A DNA stretch of 64,000 bases from assembly GCA_030141605.1 (NCBI GenBank), contig JAQGDQ010000003.1:453501-517500 (forward strand). The letters are read 5' to 3'. A program made the position numbers and the translations under genes. Of the stretch, positions 856 to 31,063 are shown piece after piece. Each line of letters begins with the position of its first letter. Position 1 is the first letter of the stretch. Origin of the DNA: Tubiluchus corallicola (Eukaryota > Priapulida > Priapulimorpha > Priapulimorphida > Tubiluchidae). The notes under the pieces are model-generated. The model saw only the letters and a program-made list of their open reading frames with translations. It was not told the DNA's origin and searched no databases.

Positions 856-1008
856 CCCTATGATCAATATATTCAGAAATCGATCAATACTGGTTCTTTT
901 GAATTTTGCTTGTCCACTGTTTTGCATCAGCTTTGTGTCCCGGCCGGCAAACAGCACAAGGCCATAACACCACTTAGTATTGCGAAGCACGCAACCCCTA
1001 TATAAAAT
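856..1008 (-). CDS. ATP8B: ATP8B coding exon 9, last one in the window
   Basis: 51 codons starting [20 protein letters not shown] and ending [13 protein letters not shown] chose the acceptor ttttcaag at 1009-1010, after a long pyrimidine tract, over the nearer tatatag because it supplies ILYR, needed to join LDNDK to RGC in frame. Donor gtatgt. The next exon would start TM3 and lies beyond base 1. Confidence 0.9.
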
Positions 1009-4000
1009 CTTGAAAAATAAAAAAGAAAAAAATGGTCAGCAAAAGCGACACCAAAATGCCAATATACCGATAAAGATCTTCATCTCAAAAATGCATGTGT
1101 GACCCAGTAAAATTTACCAAAGTATTAGTTTAAAAGCTAAAGTTTGTTGGTTCTACAAAACTGAAATGGGTGACCCTAAAAAATGCAAACTCACAAATAT
1201 GAATATGTGATACACTAAATATGGATATACTTGATATACGGATATACTTGAGAATTACATTTTCTTCCCCTTTAATTAAACTACAGCAAAAAGTCACCTT
1301 GTCATTGTCCAGGGAATACTTAGCAGTTTTCCAGTTCATTGTACCTTCAAACTTGCTCAAGTTGTTGTTAGGTGGTTCACAAACAATTTCCGCTATGAAA
1401 AACATTTAAACTATTTTGAGAGAGCACAGACAAGATGCACACGTGTATAATTTAGACATTATACAAAGTAATTCACGTCAAATCCTGCAATACCAGTCAC
1501 ATTTTGCAAAAATTCGTGTTCAGTAGTTTATGGAATCAGAGTTTATAAATGTTTCTACTAGACTATTGTTTGTAGTAGCACTGCACAATAAAATGCAAAT
1601 GAATTTATCAAAGTTGTTACTTAACTCCTTTACAACTTATCTTCAAAATTAGCTCTCGGCATTTCAAGGCTAGCAGCAATGCAATTCCTGTTGGCTAAAA
1701 TCACCTAATGCCTTGAGCTATCATATCCAAGTTAAGTACAGCTAGTAAGTGACAAGAGTTGGTTGACAAATCCTGTAACAAAGCCTGAGCATATTCTTGC
1801 AATGTCACAAAATTTTCTCTTTCAACAACATAGGAGCCTGTTTTGCCCCTTTCCCAGATTGCCGTTTCGTAATTTCCACGATTCTGTTAGTTTAATGTCC
1901 AGGAATGTAATAATGCACCAAAAACAAAAGTTTCATTTAATTCACAAGGTTTTTAGTCTGAAGTAATCAAATATGATAAAAAATAAACACAAGTAGTAAA
2001 AGGAAGGTCTTCATATAATTGGTGAGTATGTCGACATCTACAGTCTTACCATTAAAATTTGCAATTTCTAGAATGTTGTCAAGCATAGCAGCGGTATCGG
2101 GTATAGCTTGGCGACATTTCAGATTTGTTTCTCTGTAAATTGAATAAAAAGAAGTTTTCTTTTTGTCAATCTTAACTGCTTTAACAACTGGTACACCATT
2201 TTATGAAAAATGCTTGTTAAAACTGCAGACAGAATGGTTTTAATTTAAACTAATTATTATTTAATTGAATATCATACTTATTCCAAAGAAAATTAAAAAT
2301 TATACAGAAATATTTATGCGACAAAATTGTCAATATTTAGATCACTTATATGTATTTGCGACAGATATGTTCTTGAACATAGCAACTGTTGGAACCACTC
2401 CAAAATTAAGAACTAGTACAATAAAACATGCTATAAGCAATAATTACCCATCCAATTCAGCAGTTTCTATGTAACAAAGCCCATGAGGTTCACTTGTTGA
2501 AAGCAATAAAAGATCAGCCTAAAATTGAATAGAACCTATCAGCATTGCAAGCTGACTTTAAATAAAGATTATTATTATTATGTCATTTTTGCATCAGTAT
2601 TAAATCCTGTGATATCTAGAAATCCTGTAAGGAAGATGTGATATATGTACCTATTAATTTTGGAAGAAATAATAGGCCAAGACCAATATTCTGTTAGTCA
2701 CATAATATTCAGCTTTCATAAGATTTCAGAATATTTCAAATTCTGGATATTACTGTATTACTACAAGTGATCTACAGTGATTCTGCTTCTCATGCAAGAC
2801 ATTCATTTCCAGTCACAAAGCCAAAAAACATCTAGGTGATTTCAACATCATCCGAAATGTGGTGGTATCTACTGCTTAATCAAAATATGAAGTAACTGTT
2901 GAGTCACTTCACTTTAAAGCTTTAATTTTAATTTAAATTTGTTTGCGACAGTTGCACAAAGACAAATTCTTTTAAGTCAATCATACGATTTTCCATTTAT
3001 TCACGCAAGTCTGGTGGTTTTTTGCCATGCCTCAGTTCCATATTATATTAAAACATGTGCAGGATATGTTAAAAGATTCATTTAATGACAATCTTAAATG
3101 TATAGATAGCCCCAACTCAAACTGCACTCTATCTGTTTTAACCTGTTCACCAATAATTAATACTAGCTAGAATTATTGTCGCCGGGTCTTTTGTGAAGGC
3201 TGTTGCTAAGTTTTCAATCATACCTGCTGCACGGCAGTGAAAACAACAGCAATAAATATGGATTACCACTAATGACGTGGATGTCACCAGGGGAGACAGA
3301 AATGATTTACACTTTGTTGTCATTGCCACCAAGTTTACACAAATGGTGACGTATCAATCAAAAGCTTAAATCAATTTGCTGTTCAAATTTTGTAGTAAAA
3401 CATTTTGTATAGAAAGCACCTATGGTGCACAAAAGCAATTTATGCCTCTGGTTGAGTACGTGTCATGTGTCACATGTTACAATTTTCGATATGCACACAG
3501 TATTATTGAACAATACTATTCAACCCAACAATAAAACATCTATTATTAAAAGTAATGCATCAGTTGAGATACTAAAAATAGCCATAGGTACTAATAAAAT
3601 GTTTACAATGAAAGAATGCCGATAAAGATGTGTGTGATTCATATACACAGGAAAAAGTGTAACAATCTTTATTAATTCTGTGTAACAATATAAACCTAAT
3701 CAAAATAACGACTGTTAGTAAATGCACTTTTCAAATATATTTAAGTATCTTAAGCAGGATGAATAGCCGAATGGTCATGATACATAATTCGCAATATGCT
3801 AAGTAATGCCGATTAGTGATTACATGAAAGCTGCCTTTGAGTGCCTTTAGTACTTTTAGAATCAGTTTTGGCCATCGACTGCTAGTAATGGCCATAATTT
3901 TGCATAGATATTTCATATACATAGTACTTACTGCAATGAAATGGTCATTTTCCATGCGTATGATATCTCCCACTTGAACATTCTGCCAGCAATCTTCTAC

Positions 4001-7000
4001 CACCTTGTTACCACGCAACACCATAGACCGACGGTTGTTAACCAAATTGTCATTCCTATGTCTTTGCTACAGAAAAATAAGTTTATAAACAATTTGTTCT
4101 GCATATGCCAAACACACAGCTACATATTCAAATGATGCTTCTAACCACCTGTGTTAACATATCTTCAGCATACATTTCATGTTGCCACAAGTGGTAAAAT
4201 GATTGGAGCAACAGCAAGATGTGAAGTTGGACAAGAAATTTAAAAAATGTTGTTGTGCAAACACATTTTACTGCTAAAATGCAAATAATATTTACACAAG
4301 ATGGCAATAATTTAATTATGCAATTTTGAATTTCACCAATAAACCACAAATTTACACTTTGCACAGAGAATGGCATTCTGAATATTTCACAAATTCACAT
4401 TTATAATCAAGTGTGAGATTATGCAAATATAAAGCAAAAAATATGAAGCAGCTGGTTACGATAAAAAATTTTTTGCTATTCCCTAAGGACATTTAAAAAA
4501 ACAAGCAGACACACAGCAACTATTACAAATGCTGGACGTCCTCAAGTTCTTGGACTTAGTGCTGTGATACTTTATGTATAAAGCATCTTTACAAAACAAA
4601 TTTACTTTTTGCACATTATCAGAACGCTGAAATCACTCCACTAAGTCACTGACATGCTCAAAAAAGAGTTAAGCACTTGAACTGTTCCAATGAATGGAAT
4701 GTTTATTTAGTACAAGTTTTGAAATTTTAATGATCATAACATATTTTCAGAAACATGTTTAGTTATGAAGTCATGTACAAAGAGACGTATAGAAAATATG
4801 AAATTTAGACTTAGAAACACATTTATTCAATAATACTCTTAAAGAGAACTGGAGTTTTCACAGAAAGAATAAGTACTGTTCATTGTACACTAATAACACC
4901 CATAATGGAATATGCTTGCCTTGCACAGTATACTTCTCTACCATTAGAACAAAGTTAGTAGAGACAACCAGAAACCAGTTTTAAGATTACATTTGTCAAA
5001 TTACTTATTTGCAAATGAAGAAGTTTGTGCTAAATTTTTCAAGTTAATCCAAAATCATGATAACAGATCTTAAAAATGCGACCATCATATACTCGTAAGA
5101 AACTGAGGTAAACCTCCCTTCTTTGCCAAACACAGCATTACAAAAATAGTTTCAGACATTATATACTGCTACATTATTAATAATTGTAAAATTGACTATA
5201 TTGTCATTTTCATTGTAATGTAATTTAACCTTTGGGTTATTATTTTACATTTTAATAAACTTAACTACTTAACTAGTGTAACCAAGTTTGACATTAGCAT
5301 TAAATAATTCACTGTTTAAGGCACAGGTGCAGTCATTGTCTTATTACCTGCCCAATGTTTTGGTGACATTGTCCCAGTGCTAGATGGAAGAACTATGTTA
5401 AAGAAATGGCTAAGAACATATAAAAAATATGGTTCCCAATCCCAGTATCATGCTTAAACATATCTGCTTCTTGAAGCTATGCTCTATCTTTACAAATTGG
5501 CTGTCTGACCCAATATGAAGTATTTGCAACCATTGCAGCCAAGGTGCCTCAGCTTGTTGCCTTAATCTGCTTGACAGACTACAACACTGTAATTATATAA
5601 AAAGTCATATTCTAAGAGCTTCCACCATAAAATAATCATTATCGTCTACCTTTTTTTAAATATCCAAAGGAATAGCAGACAACACTTCCTATAATTATTT
5701 TATTAAGAAAGCTTCTTATACTATAGTATTTGCAGTACAAAATACTATTATAATAATTAATGTGTCTTCAAGTGTTCTTTAAAATGTCCAGAAAATAGCA
5801 GAATTAACTTTACAATAGCTAACTTGCTACGGGAATTTTCATATACTACTGCTTGCAGTAATCTCACACTTCACAAATTGGTCCTTATGCTCATATGAAA
5901 TAAATAAAACATTATGCTGTGCGACTGATAATCTTCTCCATTTATGTATAAAAAGAGAAAACCATTATAATACATACAACGTCATCAAAGGCATCCTTTA
6001 GAGCTGTGAGCAGAAGTACAGTGATCAGTGGAATCATGGTCGTGTATGGAGTCAGAGAGCTGATCGTCGGGGTAAGCTACAGTGCCAGAGAGAACACAGG
6101 TGACAATAAACAGCAAACCAAACGTGCATGTGCAAAAACAAAGCAAACCACAGCTTTATGATAATAAAAATAGATCAATTTTGGGGGGTTCAGATTATTG
6201 AACATTTGTGGGTCAGTAAAGAATTGCATCCCCTCAATAGCCACTGTTGAATTTTGATGAAAATTTGTGATTATCATAGAAGCATACAACCATAAACATA
6301 ATGATATATGTTCTGTACTCTCTGCAATATTATCTGACTGTGCTGAACAGTCTGTACTCAAGATACTATTTTGACATTACTCAGCAAATAATAATCAAGG
6401 AAACGTTTAAAATTGCAGTGGTTGACTAGGAGTGTTATAAATTTCTGCAAATTTGCAAATAATCAATTCATCTGGCTCTTGAGTATGCGTGAGACTTTGG
6501 CTGAGTATTATTACATATAATATATATGAATAAATGCTACTTTTATTACAATGTTGTTAAAACCTGAGTCAAAAGATAACCTGAATAGTTTGACAATGTC
6601 AGGCAAGTTATAAACATTGCTAGAAACAAATAAAAACTGTCTAACTAGAAAAATATATAGACTTAGTGCTATGGGTATAACTGAATAAGGAAATAAAAAA
6701 TGGTTTCCTTGCTCCATAAAATGCAAAATCCCTTTTAAAAATTAAGAAAATGACTTAGTTATCTCTGTTACACAAAGACACCTATTCGTCATCATAGGAT
6801 GCAATATTAATCTATAAAATTAACCCATAAATTTATTTATTATTAAGAAATTTAAGCTATAAAGATTGATCACTTATAGACTTTTAGACTATCCCAGTGC
6901 ACCACAAAGGTAGTATACACAACTTTTTGACACGCTTAAAGACAAATTATGATGTTAAGCAAGATCTCCGGTACCTTTATGCCACTGACGAAGTACTAGT

Positions 7001-10000
7001 TGCCACTACACATAACCATAGTTCAAAAATCTATAAGGATTTTATCTGAAGGATTAAATTTGCCTGTGACTTACAGTGGGCGCTAGAGGACAACGACAAG
7101 AAATCGTTCAGTCAGGCAACTGAAGCTCTTATGACAATAAATCAGGCTTGGGGATGGGGAAGCCGGTTGGCATAATTGCATCATTCAATAATAGAGATGC
7201 TGGTGAACTGACTGATTGAACCTTCTTAAGTTAACAACTAACTGCAGTCCTGTCTTCTTGGCTAGAATGTATAAGAGGAGTTTAATGAACTAGTTCGCAT
7301 AATAAAGCGAGACAGTGACCGAGTACGGGGAATTTTAAGCTTATTCTATAAAATCTATAACAACATAAATGACACATTTACTGATCACGTCTTTCTGTTC
7401 TCCTTTCAACAGAAAAAGGAAAATTCGTTTTAGAAAACAGTACAATTAGTCTACCAATAGAAGCTAGCTTTTTTTAGTTATGTGCAAACATTTTGATAAA
7501 ATCCTACTAACAATAAGTCAAAAATATTGAAACAGACATTTGCTTTCTCTATACCATTTTGAAACTGGCCTGAGCTTCCTACTGCTTACTAAACAGTGCT
7601 CACACAAAGTCAAAATAAAAAATGAAAGCCACACTGGCCCACACACAAAAAAATATTATCAAAGGTACAGTTCACACTTCACACATACTTTTTATCTCAC
7701 TTACGATATCGTCAATCGCTTCTTTAAAAGACACTGCAGACAATACAGCCACTAATGGCACAATCGTAGTTACATATGTGAGAGAGCTGATCACTGGGAT
7801 TAACTAAAACCATAAAACTCAGAAATTGATTAACTGCTTAACTGCACAATGTTAGTTTTATCAAAGCAATACATTATCCTAGCCAGAAAATGAAGATACA
7901 TAATTTGATTATATATGTTGTAGCATGATTAGAAATCTTTCTGTTGACATAGCTCTAATGAGCTTGTTTTTGCATTGCATGTTTAGATGATGATAGCGAT
8001 TTTTGCCAACTGAAATTTGACCAGCTCTTTTAATATACTTTTAATAATCACTATTATGCTCTGATCGCTCTCATTTAATTGCAGCCATAAATCGAATCTG
8101 AATCGAATTACATGCGTAGCATTTTAGAATAAATCAACTTTAAATTTATTTTGAAATTGACTGCATGAATCAAGGTAAAGAAAAAAATAATACTACTCTA
8201 ATTTCAGTTTAATGTTTAGATTTAAAATGGGTAACATAATTAATTTCCACTTTCTGAATCTTTGCAAAAAAAAGCTACTGTCGCCAAAATTGATTAGGTA
8301 AAAGAATGAGTACTACATTACACTACCTTCATCTTGAAAGTCAAAGTCACCTTTAAAATATTAGCAACTTAGCAACTGTGTAACAGATGCTATGCATGTA
8401 GTTATGTGATGTCACCATTGTCTACTGTAGTTTTCCTTACTTAGAATTTGTGTTATCAATTGCCCTATGTCAGTCTTAGGAGAGGTGAGTTGATTATAAC
8501 TTGCTCACCTGATTGCATCCTATTAGGGATGGTACTCGTATTGCACTGCAAGTTCTCATTTCACGTCAATTGCGCAACTATTTTAATGCAGATTACTTAT
8601 CACTGATTTTAAGACAGGTTTTATTAATTATAATTTTGTTATTCATATAGGTCAGTACTTTGCAGTCAAGATCCAGCACTTATCCGTGGAAGGATTACTT
8701 AATGTAGGAACTAGTAGTGAGACTGCAACCTAGCTCATTTAAGTCTCTCAGATGAGTCGTTATACTGGCAGCAGCATTGTAGCCATGATCTGATATGTCT
8801 ACGTCCTTCCTCCAAGAGAGAAATAGCCAGGAAAATATGACAAAAAATTTGACTGGCAGACACGCATCCAGTTACTTATCTACCCCAATGTTGCTTAATT
8901 TTGCAGCCAAGTCCACACTGTAATCACTCCTCTGTTTTTATTGTCATTTTATAGTCTTTTATAGAATGTCTTTTGTACTAATGGGTTTTAATGTATCTAA
9001 CGGTGCCTATGATATGAATGCTTATGAAATTAAATATTCAGTATTCTACAAAGACAATTCACAATAAAAAAAACAATAATAATATCACACAAACCTGCAA
9101 TATTAGAAGAAAGAGGAAATAACGATTAGCCAGTCGCTGGAACTGTTCAAACAAATTCTTTGGTAGAAAAGTCAAGACATTATATTTGGAGGTACTAATA
9201 TAGTTGTTCTGAAAGAAAACCGATGACAATACAAATGTATTCACATTTGGATTAATAAACTTGAAAGCAACATTTAATGAACTAACTAAATGAAACACTA
9301 CGCAAAGAGTATTAAAAAGCTTCTGTCTGCAATTTAAGAACATTTTAGTCAATCAAAGAACGGTTGCTAGGTAGGAATGACTTCAGATTGATAGGATAAT
9401 AGGTCGGATCATGAAATACACAGATCAATAGATATATGAGAGGTTTCCCTAGTTGTAATTTAGCATTTCGACAGCATTAATATATTAAACCACCACTCAT
9501 CAAGGAGGAGAAAAGAGTGTACAGCACACAGAGATGCATTAGTTAATTAATTAGGTTATAATATTACTTAAAAAAACTTGAACATGGAACAAATGTCAAT
9601 GACAGTATATACTGACAATATATTTGTCAATGTCAAACATACGGGGTGTTCAAAAGCTTTTACACACAGCATATTTGCTAGTTTTGCCACTGACACATAT
9701 CGACTACTTCTAATCTAACGGAAAAGTCATTATGATATGTAGACTGTTATCAGACACGGACCTAATCAGGATGTGATCTGACCTTGCAAAATATTTTGTG
9801 TATTTTCTTTTAACTTACCGCATAATAGAATTTTGCATTGTAGCTGCTATTATTTGCTTTGATTCTTCGCTCAAGCTCTGAAATATATATCAAGGGGCAC
9901 ATTAAGTATAAGAACAGCAATAACAAGGAGTTATTTTTTTCCATCATAAAAATGAATTGCACCCTTCATTCTAAAATAAATCTTGAAAATATAACTTTTT

Positions 10001-29314: not shown

Positions 29315-31063
29315 ATGGCAGTATCATCGCAGAATAGTTTAAATGTGCTAGAAACTGTCATTGAGCAAGTCAAGGCAGCAGTCTGTGCATCACAAGAGAC
29401 AAATGAACAGAAAAGTGATAAAACTAAAACATTGCCTGAGAATACTAATCAGTTGCATCTTGAGTCTGGAAGCGGCGCTGATACCGATAAATCAAAACCT
29501 TTTGCCATAACTAAGCAGACGTCAAACTTATCAAATGGAGATCTTTTGGTCCACACCCAAGGTCATTTTGACAATGACTCTTTGAGCAAGTTTTTAATCG
29601 AACACGGGTCTTCTGGTTTATTAGCACCAGTTGTGAAATGCACCATTCCAAATGCAAATACACTAGCAGTAAACCTTGACAGGACTGTTTTGTTTAGAAT
29701 GTGTGTAATACAAATAAATCATGAAGGGTTTCAGTATGGGCATCAAAGGACAGGAAATGGTAACATCATTTTGATTAATACAGTATTGTCTCCTGTTGAT
29801 GATAACTTGCAAGATAGATTGTCTTTATGCAACTTGAGAGCTGTTTTGCTCAGTATGCACATTCAAAGGCTTCTAGAAGCTAATGGCTACAGAATTCAAG
29901 AGACAAATGAGTGTGTGAAAGAGAAAGCACGGACATTTTTCAGTTTTTCTTCTAAGGACATATGCCAAAATTTGAGACCACTTCCTTTAATTCAAACTGA
30001 GCTACTTACTTTTGCTATTGCATCTCCATTTAATACTTTTCAGCAAGCATTATTGGGAAAGGGCGACAGTCAGGATATAGATCTGACAGCACCAATTATT
30101 ACTGTTGATGGCAGATATTTTATAGAAAAGCAGCAGCTTTGTGTGGGTGGTAAAGAATATAGTAAATCACTTGGATTGATTAAAGTCAGAAGTGGAAATG
30201 AAACAAGTGACATTTTTCAGCAAGTTGTCTTACTAGAAAGATTAAGATGCAGTTTTGATAAAAAATTAGTGGGAGTCATTCACATTGCAAACCAAAGGGC
30301 ACAGTTCCAACAACAGCAGCTTGATATTTTATGGCGAATTCTGGGCCAAAGAGAATCTCCCCAGGTCCATGTTGTTCATGGGGATGTAGCATCTAAGCAG
30401 TATACCGAATGGCATAGTCTAGCTGTTGATCAGTTTGTTAAACTTCGTAAAGAACAAATGATTACTGCATCTGTGTCTAAGTATGGTGAATGTGTTCGTG
30501 GAGACGACTGGACAGACACCATTCAGACTTTAACTAAAGCTGTCATTAAATTTGAAGTCCTTTCCAATTCCTTTGGTGTGAATGTTTTACTAGACGTTTC
30601 TGAAAGAGGAAGCCCAGTATATAACAAAGGCGGTTGTTTTGTACTGTATAACTACGCGAGACTTTGTACTCTTTTTGCGAATTATGAAAAATCTGTTGCC
30701 TCGGGTACTTACCCACTTCTGCCGCCAGTAGAGGAGATTGATTATAGTTTACTAAAGGAAGAAGAGGAATGGAAGTTGCTGTTTAACTACGTGTTACCTT
30801 TTCCTTCATTAGTAAAGGACTGCATTGGAGAGTTTTCGCTGCAAAGTCCCCAAGCTCATGTACAAACGCACCGTGCATGTCAGTTTTTATCAAGCCTTAG
30901 TCGACTTTTCAGTGTGTATTACAGTAGGATTCATGTGCTTGGTGAACCTCGAGAACACCTTTTGCCACTCATGTTTGCAAGATTACACCTGTTGCAAGCT
31001 GTGAAACAGGTGATGTTGAACACGCTCAGGTTGTTAGATATAGAACCACCGTTACAAATGTGA
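29315..31063 (+). CDS. DALRD3: DALR anticodon-binding domain protein 3
   Basis: 582-aa protein. In vertebrates DALRD3 partners METTL2 to place 3-methylcytidine at position 32 of particular tRNA-Arg species, using an arginyl-tRNA-synthetase-like DALR fold to recognise the tRNA. Seen: residues about 400-582 form the all-helical DALR domain (TLTKAVIKFEVL, CFVLYNYARLCTLFANYE at about 440, then LLPPVEEIDYSLLKEEEEW, LLFNYVLPFP, HRACQFLSSLSRLFSVYYSR, VHVLGEPREHLLPLMFARL-like end and C-terminal DIEPPLQM). No HIGH or KMSKS motif is present, as expected for a non-catalytic protein. Residues 1-90 are Ser/Thr/Asn-rich and poorly conserved. The length is close to the human protein. The whole frame is in one exon, unlike the multi-exon human gene. 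An AATAAA follows at about 31107. Retro-origin or intron loss are both possible. Confidence 0.85.
   Translation: MAVSSQNSLNVLETVIEQVKAAVCASQETNEQKSDKTKTLPENTNQLHLESGSGADTDKSKPFAITKQTSNLSNGDLLVHTQGHFDNDSLSKFLIEHGSSGLLAPVVKCTIPNANTLAVNLDRTVLFRMCVIQINHEGFQYGHQRTGNGNIILINTVLSPVDDNLQDRLSLCNLRAVLLSMHIQRLLEANGYRIQETNECVKEKARTFFSFSSKDICQNLRPLPLIQTELLTFAIASPFNTFQQALLGKGDSQDIDLTAPIITVDGRYFIEKQQLCVGGKEYSKSLGLIKVRSGNETSDIFQQVVLLERLRCSFDKKLVGVIHIANQRAQFQQQQLDILWRILGQRESPQVHVVHGDVASKQYTEWHSLAVDQFVKLRKEQMITASVSKYGECVRGDDWTDTIQTLTKAVIKFEVLSNSFGVNVLLDVSERGSPVYNKGGCFVLYNYARLCTLFANYEKSVASGTYPLLPPVEEIDYSLLKEEEEWKLLFNYVLPFPSLVKDCIGEFSLQSPQAHVQTHRACQFLSSLSRLFSVYYSRIHVLGEPREHLLPLMFARLHLLQAVKQVMLNTLRLLDIEPPLQM

Follow-up and report, generated by a model that had tools for sequence, protein, structure and literature searches.

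Does one gene of the priapulid Tubiluchus corallicola supply two flippases that differ only around the gate through which lipids enter? The question is raised by two neighbouring exons of a minus-strand P4-ATPase gene on contig JAQGDQ010000003.1 of assembly GCA_030141605.1 (343.5 Mb in 2,344 contigs). The gene was studied at C1915:453501-517500, a stretch of 64,000 nucleotides (nt) within this 3.0-Mb contig that is called the window below. An earlier note, made from the letters of the window, had proposed that the two exons are duplicates that replace each other in the transcript. The best explanation, in which we place considerable confidence on the sequence as it stands, is that the exon for the end of transmembrane segment 1 (TM1), the outer loop and TM2 was tandemly duplicated in an ATP8B-like P4-ATPase gene, giving two mutually exclusive exons, here named V1 and V2, and two flippase isoforms.

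Two homologous exons in an ATP8B-like gene

V1 and V2 are each 99 bp long, start and end in phase 0, are open throughout and stand between the same two phase-0 flanking exons. The borders are gttttag/TTA...ATC/gtaagt for V1 and cactgtag/CTT...GTT/gtatgt for V2, with introns in lower case. The two exons agree at 17 of 33 residues and 53 of 99 nucleotides, and tblastn pairs them with an E value of 9e-7 over 84 kb of the contig; because of these values their homology is taken to be beyond chance. The structural features expected of mutually exclusive exons are all present, namely neighbouring position, equal phase, similar length, homology and splice sites of their own. The positions, lengths and phases that had been given for the exons were right, with AG...GT borders on the minus strand, and the view of the pair as duplicated, homologous and intact is borne out by the tblastn match, the open frames and the splice borders.

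Matches to the P4-ATPase domains PF16209 (77.3 bits, cut-off 29) and PF16212 (135.9 bits, cut-off 28.3) exceed the model cut-offs. The E1-E2 ATPase model PF00122 reached 21.2 bits, under its cut-off of 28.1, on a 250-residue fragment that holds only part of the domain. The motifs ELDG/ETNL, SDKTGTLTQ and NTVVPISLYV were read in the exons, DKTGT being a P4-ATPase motif. DGET and PISL are named as motifs of the family as well (PMC10657443, PMC12424579). The PISS within the exons, which the earlier note had treated as a P4 motif, is not the P4 signature; the signature is PISL in TM4, and in this gene it lies in another exon (...LNTVVPISLYV...), about 0.8 kb past the window's low end. A 116-residue segment spliced with V1 or V2 matched 20 distinct Protein Data Bank (PDB) sequences at E <= 0.001, all bearing the name of a phospholipid-transporting ATPase and one of them a fusion. 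The best match was 'ATPase IC' (human ATP8B1), with 117 bits for V1 and 120 bits for V2; the protein of PDB entry 6k7g, which we take to be ATP8A1, scored 105 bits. By these PDB match scores, in which ATP8B1 stands for its class, the gene is provisionally designated ATP8B-like.

Selection on both copies

The differences between V1 and V2 fall on first, second and third codon positions in the numbers 16, 7 and 23, respectively, the second positions accounting for 7 of 46 (binomial p 0.008). Among the 17 identical residues, 12 are encoded by differing codons. The comparison of synonymous (dS) with non-synonymous (dN) divergence, proposed in the earlier note as a check, gave a purifying pattern by the NG86 method, with dN 0.49 and a saturated dS of 3.59. 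This pattern is a property of the codons and says nothing of expression.

Neutral decay was simulated in both directions. Of the sequences decayed from V1, not one stayed open and reached V2's score against ATP8B1, either with 23 changes (0 of 20,000 runs) or with 46 (0 of 20,000). From V2, six of 20,000 runs attained V1's score against ATP8B1 when 23 changes were made, and none of 20,000 when 46 were. By this measure, V2 retains P4 sequence beyond neutral expectation. The outcome of the simulations and the third-position bias therefore suggest that neither exon resembles a relic.

Probable mutually exclusive use

The number of hydropathy peaks (mean Kyte-Doolittle value over 19 residues > 1.2) was two with V1, two with V2 (whose first peak is listed twice from a tie), three with both exons and zero with neither. 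This agrees with the earlier argument, one of predicted topology, that joint inclusion would add a transmembrane segment and that exclusivity should be favoured. In a comparison with TIGR01652, the forms with V1 and V2 scored 308.5 and 313.1 bits (250 residues each) and the form with neither 246.3 bits (217 residues); the form with both reached 314.1 bits (283 residues) with its match split in two stretches. All these forms are fragments and fall below the whole-protein cut-off of 431.25. Because inclusion of both exons would add a hydrophobic helix and omission of both would leave no TM1-TM2 hairpin, mutually exclusive use appears to be the best reading, with each transcript taking exactly one of V1 and V2. 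Two exons that encode transmembrane helices have been considered highly unlikely to act as cassette exons (PMC5740500).

What the exchange would change in the protein

Residues are numbered by alignment to the 8ox7 chain (ATP8B1), in which T144 agrees with published numbering (PMC12723151). The cassette spans residues 132-164, and the TM1 glutamine (131) is the last codon of the preceding constitutive exon, just outside it. This specificity-setting glutamine, Q131 of ATP8B1, is the counterpart of ATP11C Q79, and its counterpart in other flippases is critical for the transport of phosphatidylserine (PS) (PMC12424579). T144 corresponds to ATP11C Ser91, a headgroup-binding residue (PMC12723151), and by alignment T143 corresponds to ATP11C Thr90, which also binds the headgroup. 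V1 and V2 share P134, S137, T143, T144, P147, V151, K158, D162 and D163. From work on ATP8A2, residue 151 presumably lines the hydrophobic gate.

The exons differ at 16 positions (133, 135, 141, 142, 145, 146, 149, 150, 153-157, 159, 161 and 164), and the BLOSUM62 scores of these changes are above zero for six, below zero for five and zero for five. The differing positions lie beside the contact sites (135, 141, 142, 145, 146, 149 and 150) and along TM2. Those at 141 and 142 adjoin the Thr-Thr pair of the outer gate; residue 142 is Tyr in V2, in ATP8B1 and in the 6k7g protein, and Val in V1. At the 16 cassette sites where ATP8B1 and the 6k7g protein are identical, V1 keeps 10 and V2 keeps 11; each exon has thus lost the common residue at five or six of them. 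The earlier claim that the isoforms diverge at the very place of substrate choice thus holds only in part: differences do lie beside the contact sites, but the TM1 glutamine is outside the cassette, and the Thr-Thr pair and V151 are identical.

In tandem duplicated exon pairs, most ligand residues (80.6%) are conserved (PMC9741552). We judge a fine adjustment of the gate to be likelier than a switch of substrate, because contacts held constant among varying neighbours repeat this published pattern. Both isoforms may accept a broad range of substrates, because the occlusion-site side chains of ATP8B1 are virtually unchanged with phosphatidylcholine (PC), PS or phosphatidylinositol (PI) bound (PMC10657443). 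The two isoforms would then have the catalytic machinery, the TM1 glutamine and the Thr-Thr contacts in common while 16 of the 33 cassette residues, next to the entry gate and along TM2, would be different. What would probably be tuned is the opening and closing of the gate, the shape of the headgroup cavity and the coupling between TM2 and the A domain.

Origin of the pair

On C1789 the assembly also holds an ATP8A-like paralogue in which the corresponding exon, again 99 bp long and bounded identically (LLQ/.../KRHKAD), occurs once; in an ATP11-like gene (C562) the exon is likewise single and has the 5' border in common, but it is shorter, at 84 bp. The exon lengths were counted by hand, and the class names are our reading. 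A profile scan of the adjoining introns in C1789 and C562 turned up no further cassette in the orientation of the gene, and the flanking introns of C1789 gave one opposite-strand match at E 4.9. Because the paralogue exon is present in single copy with the same borders, the exon is considered ancestral to the three genes and tandemly duplicated in the ATP8B-like gene.

Within the 84-kb stretch, searches with the 22 other exon segments gave no further copy at E < 0.001, the remaining hits being at chance level from E 0.19 upward, and a profile search detected no third cassette. Five sequences, V1 and V2 among them, went into the profile, so these two match it by construction. The profile's next match (12.7 bits, E 0.01) was rejected as a cassette, as its reading frame traverses a (TG)n repeat. 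V2 is identical to ATP8B1 at 18 of 33 residues and V1 at 14 of 33, against 17 of 33 between V1 and V2; the duplication may for this reason be old, 33 residues being too few for a tree.

Weighing the explanations

Several observations count against a regulated pair of isoforms. All four splice outcomes keep the reading frame, and because both exons are 99 bp long and in phase 0, frameshift and nonsense-mediated decay cannot police their exclusivity. U12 splice sites and steric blocking are unlikely mechanisms, because the borders are GT-AG and the intervening intron is 1,628 nt long. Competing intronic RNA base pairing, for which the earlier note had suggested searching the intervening intron, did not rise above dinucleotide shuffles in an ungapped pairing test made without conservation. 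The best pairings observed were reached by 77, 72 and 46 of 100 shuffles and the docking score by 37 of 100, so that by this test no docking element pairs with either side above chance. Complementary arms of 23 nt (74%) are present at window positions 6093-6115, in the tract before the V2 acceptor, and 4133-4155, before the acceptor of the next exon; their score of 30.5 is below that of the best mid-down pairing, 31.5, itself reached by 72 of 100 shuffles. The direct and inverted repeats listed for 3932-9208, among them 25 of the 29 inverted pairs, are short, none exceeding 31 nt, and the direct repeat D3 is the start of V1 and V2 itself. Directly after the V1 donor, a GU-rich stretch (7585-7704, minus strand) has 15 TGTG/GTGT hits in 120 nt; it ranks in the top 2% of 400 overlapping windows and was one of 20 comparisons, and it is not significant after correction. 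The V2 donor GTATGT is further than the V1 donor GTAAGT from what we take to be the consensus, and GTATGT is also the donor of exon 1008-856 of the same gene. No orthologue was confirmed among 241 viral and 258 genome stretches that matched patterns. A further query gave 90 relatives and 79 retained loci, of which six (L032-L037) were scanned, the other 73 matching only query residues 37-55 or 37-54; these six of 79 loci held no orthologue, the second-best cassette match within a locus being E 0.78 or weaker. By elimination, trans-acting splicing factors remain as candidate regulators, and they would set the choice of isoform by cell type. In a human survey, RNA-protein interactions and RNA structure were proposed for most mutually exclusive clusters (PMC5740500).

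Both isoforms are predictions from sequence, and it is conceivable that only one exon is used and that the other is a silent relic still looking intact, a view with which the less canonical V2 donor would fit. We consider this improbable: each exon, though the pair is saturated at third positions, still has an open frame and splice sites and retains P4 residues, simulated decay failed to reproduce such intactness in 79,994 of 80,000 runs, and V2 is nearer to ATP8B1 than V1 is (18 against 14 of 33). Ordinary cassette exons, included together or freely skipped, would be allowed by a reading frame that every combination keeps and by a both-in form that still matches TIGR01652 at 314.1 bits. That match falls in two stretches, however, and a third hydrophobic segment with both exons, or none with neither, would disrupt the topology ahead of the A domain; with the published structural argument (PMC5740500) added, this arrangement is given very little chance. 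Least credible of all is an assembly artefact in which a piece of another P4 gene was misjoined into the intron. The assembly does contain at least one duplicated locus of 3,144 bases, identical at L012 (C1534:489821-492964) and L013 (C1779:342550-345693), which lie on separate contigs, but V2 and a 2-kb stretch around both exons each match it once, inside the 3.0-Mb contig, and V2 is closer to ATP8B1 (18 of 33) than to the 6k7g protein (11 of 33), as expected for this gene. An allelic second copy of the 2-kb stretch was not found in the assembly.

A bolder form of the proposed exon swap, whose odds overlap with those of the swap itself, would have it switch the lipid substrate outright and so give two cargoes. 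TM1-TM2 form the outer gate and the cavity, side chains surrounding the headgroup reshape specificity (PMC12424579, PMC12723151), and V1 and V2 differ at 141 and 142, adjoining T143/T144, and at 135. Yet the TM1 glutamine lies outside the cassette, T143/T144, P134, S137, P147 and V151 are shared, and the occlusion-site side chains of ATP8B1 scarcely differ whether PC, PS or PI is bound (PMC10657443). An outright switch is accordingly regarded as possible but rather unlikely, and a mutually exclusive pair that tunes the gate is preferred.

The locus and its surroundings

On the minus strand, the gene extends from window position 9877 or further upstream down to position 1 and then for about 19 kb past the window's low end. 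In all, 24 exon segments covering part of the protein were read by hand, and the furthest upstream exon placed is 9819..9877.

Table 1. Features of the ATP8B-like gene, in window coordinates
Feature	Position	Strand	Basis or remark
Upstream coding exon	9819..9877	-	AG/GT borders; frame runs on into next exon
Constitutive exon that encodes the cytosolic entry and TM1's first half; final residues ...FLLILQ/, TM1 Gln being the last codon	9095..9208	-	Phase 0; PF16209 over cut-off
Candidate alternative exon V1, 99 bp, 33 residues; end of TM1, outer loop, TM2	7705..7803	-	Open frame, splice borders, homology
Intron separating V1 and V2, 1,628 nt	6077..7704	-	RNA pairing not above shuffles
Candidate alternative exon V2, 99 bp, 33 residues	5978..6076	-	Open frame, splice borders, homology, neutral-decay simulations
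Constitutive exon that follows TM2 and opens the A domain (QRHRNDNLV...HFIA)	3932..4066	-	Phase 0
Downstream exon, first part of DGET motif	2448..2518	-	Low end set by hand from sequence
Downstream exon	2050..2132	-	Exon-segment reading
Downstream exon	1298..1392	-	High end set by hand from sequence
Downstream exon	856..1008	-	Gene carries on beyond the window's low end

An intron of the flippase gene holds a (TG)n-rich microsatellite, at about 430-540. Elsewhere in the window, on the plus strand at 29315-31063, a 582-residue open frame ends in a DALR anticodon-binding domain (PF05746, 69.7 bits) and perhaps belongs to a DALRD3-like gene.

Two further loci of the assembly, L028 (C2236:19001-26000) and L029 (C512:23001-30000), encode P4-ATPases in intron-free frames of 1,336 and 1,087 residues. 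Their G+C contents are 0.39 and 0.38, on contigs of 104 and 120 kb, against 0.32-0.33 for two intron-bearing P4 paralogue loci, and they may come from an associated organism. Mitochondrial COX1 (PF00115) had no match in the whole assembly at E 1e-5. The loci L032 (NYXK01000007.1) and L033-L037 carry P4-ATPase genes under record titles of bacterial metagenome-assembled genomes; these genes look like eukaryotic contamination.

Known systems and significance

The earlier note knew of no described P4-ATPase with this arrangement. No mutually exclusive exons in TM1-TM2 of a P4-ATPase appeared in the titles and abstract starts of the literature matches listed, but the statement has to be qualified, a mutually exclusive exon cluster having been reported for human ATP10B (Hatje et al. 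2017, PMC5740500). That cluster, also in a P4-ATPase, was found in all Eutheria examined and not in marsupials. It belongs to the ATP10 class and not to ATP8B, and it may hold exons of TM1-TM2 or of another region. Also comparable are the tandem duplicated exons of plasma membrane Ca-ATPases (PMCA, mca-3), found in vertebrates, arthropods and nematodes, which likewise swap one region of a membrane pump and mostly keep the key residues (PMC9741552). Those pumps transport calcium, the main text of that study names no ATP8, ATP9, ATP10, ATP11 or flippase, and its pairs are documented from annotation, some by proteomics, whereas the present pair is known from genomic DNA. Seven isoforms are predicted for Drosophila dATP8B, with no TM1-TM2 exon mentioned in the available part of that account (PMC3961175), and a term search of PMC3303723 likewise contributed nothing about exons. 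The solved P4-ATPases (human ATP8B1; PDB 8ox7, 7py4, 6k7g and others) have a homologous TM1-TM2 with the TM1 glutamine and the Thr-Thr pair, but one such sequence per protein where here there are two alternatives. The ATP8A-like paralogue on C1789, with identical exon borders, differs in the same way by its single copy. With swappable exon pairs already known in other genes, the flippase pair looks like a further example and not a novel phenomenon.

An exon whose borders are conserved between ATP8A-like and ATP8B-like genes would here have been duplicated into a swappable cassette. Features of the entry gate that separate some substrate classes have been called unclear (PMC12424579). If both isoforms are made, they would constitute a natural flippase pair identical outside 33 residues of the mobile TM1-TM2 gate, with the headgroup contacts held constant, and could be used to learn in what way the second-shell residues of the gate influence specificity, rate and autoinhibition. 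Should their lipid preferences differ, the pair would be a natural paired experiment on how such residues set substrate and coupling.

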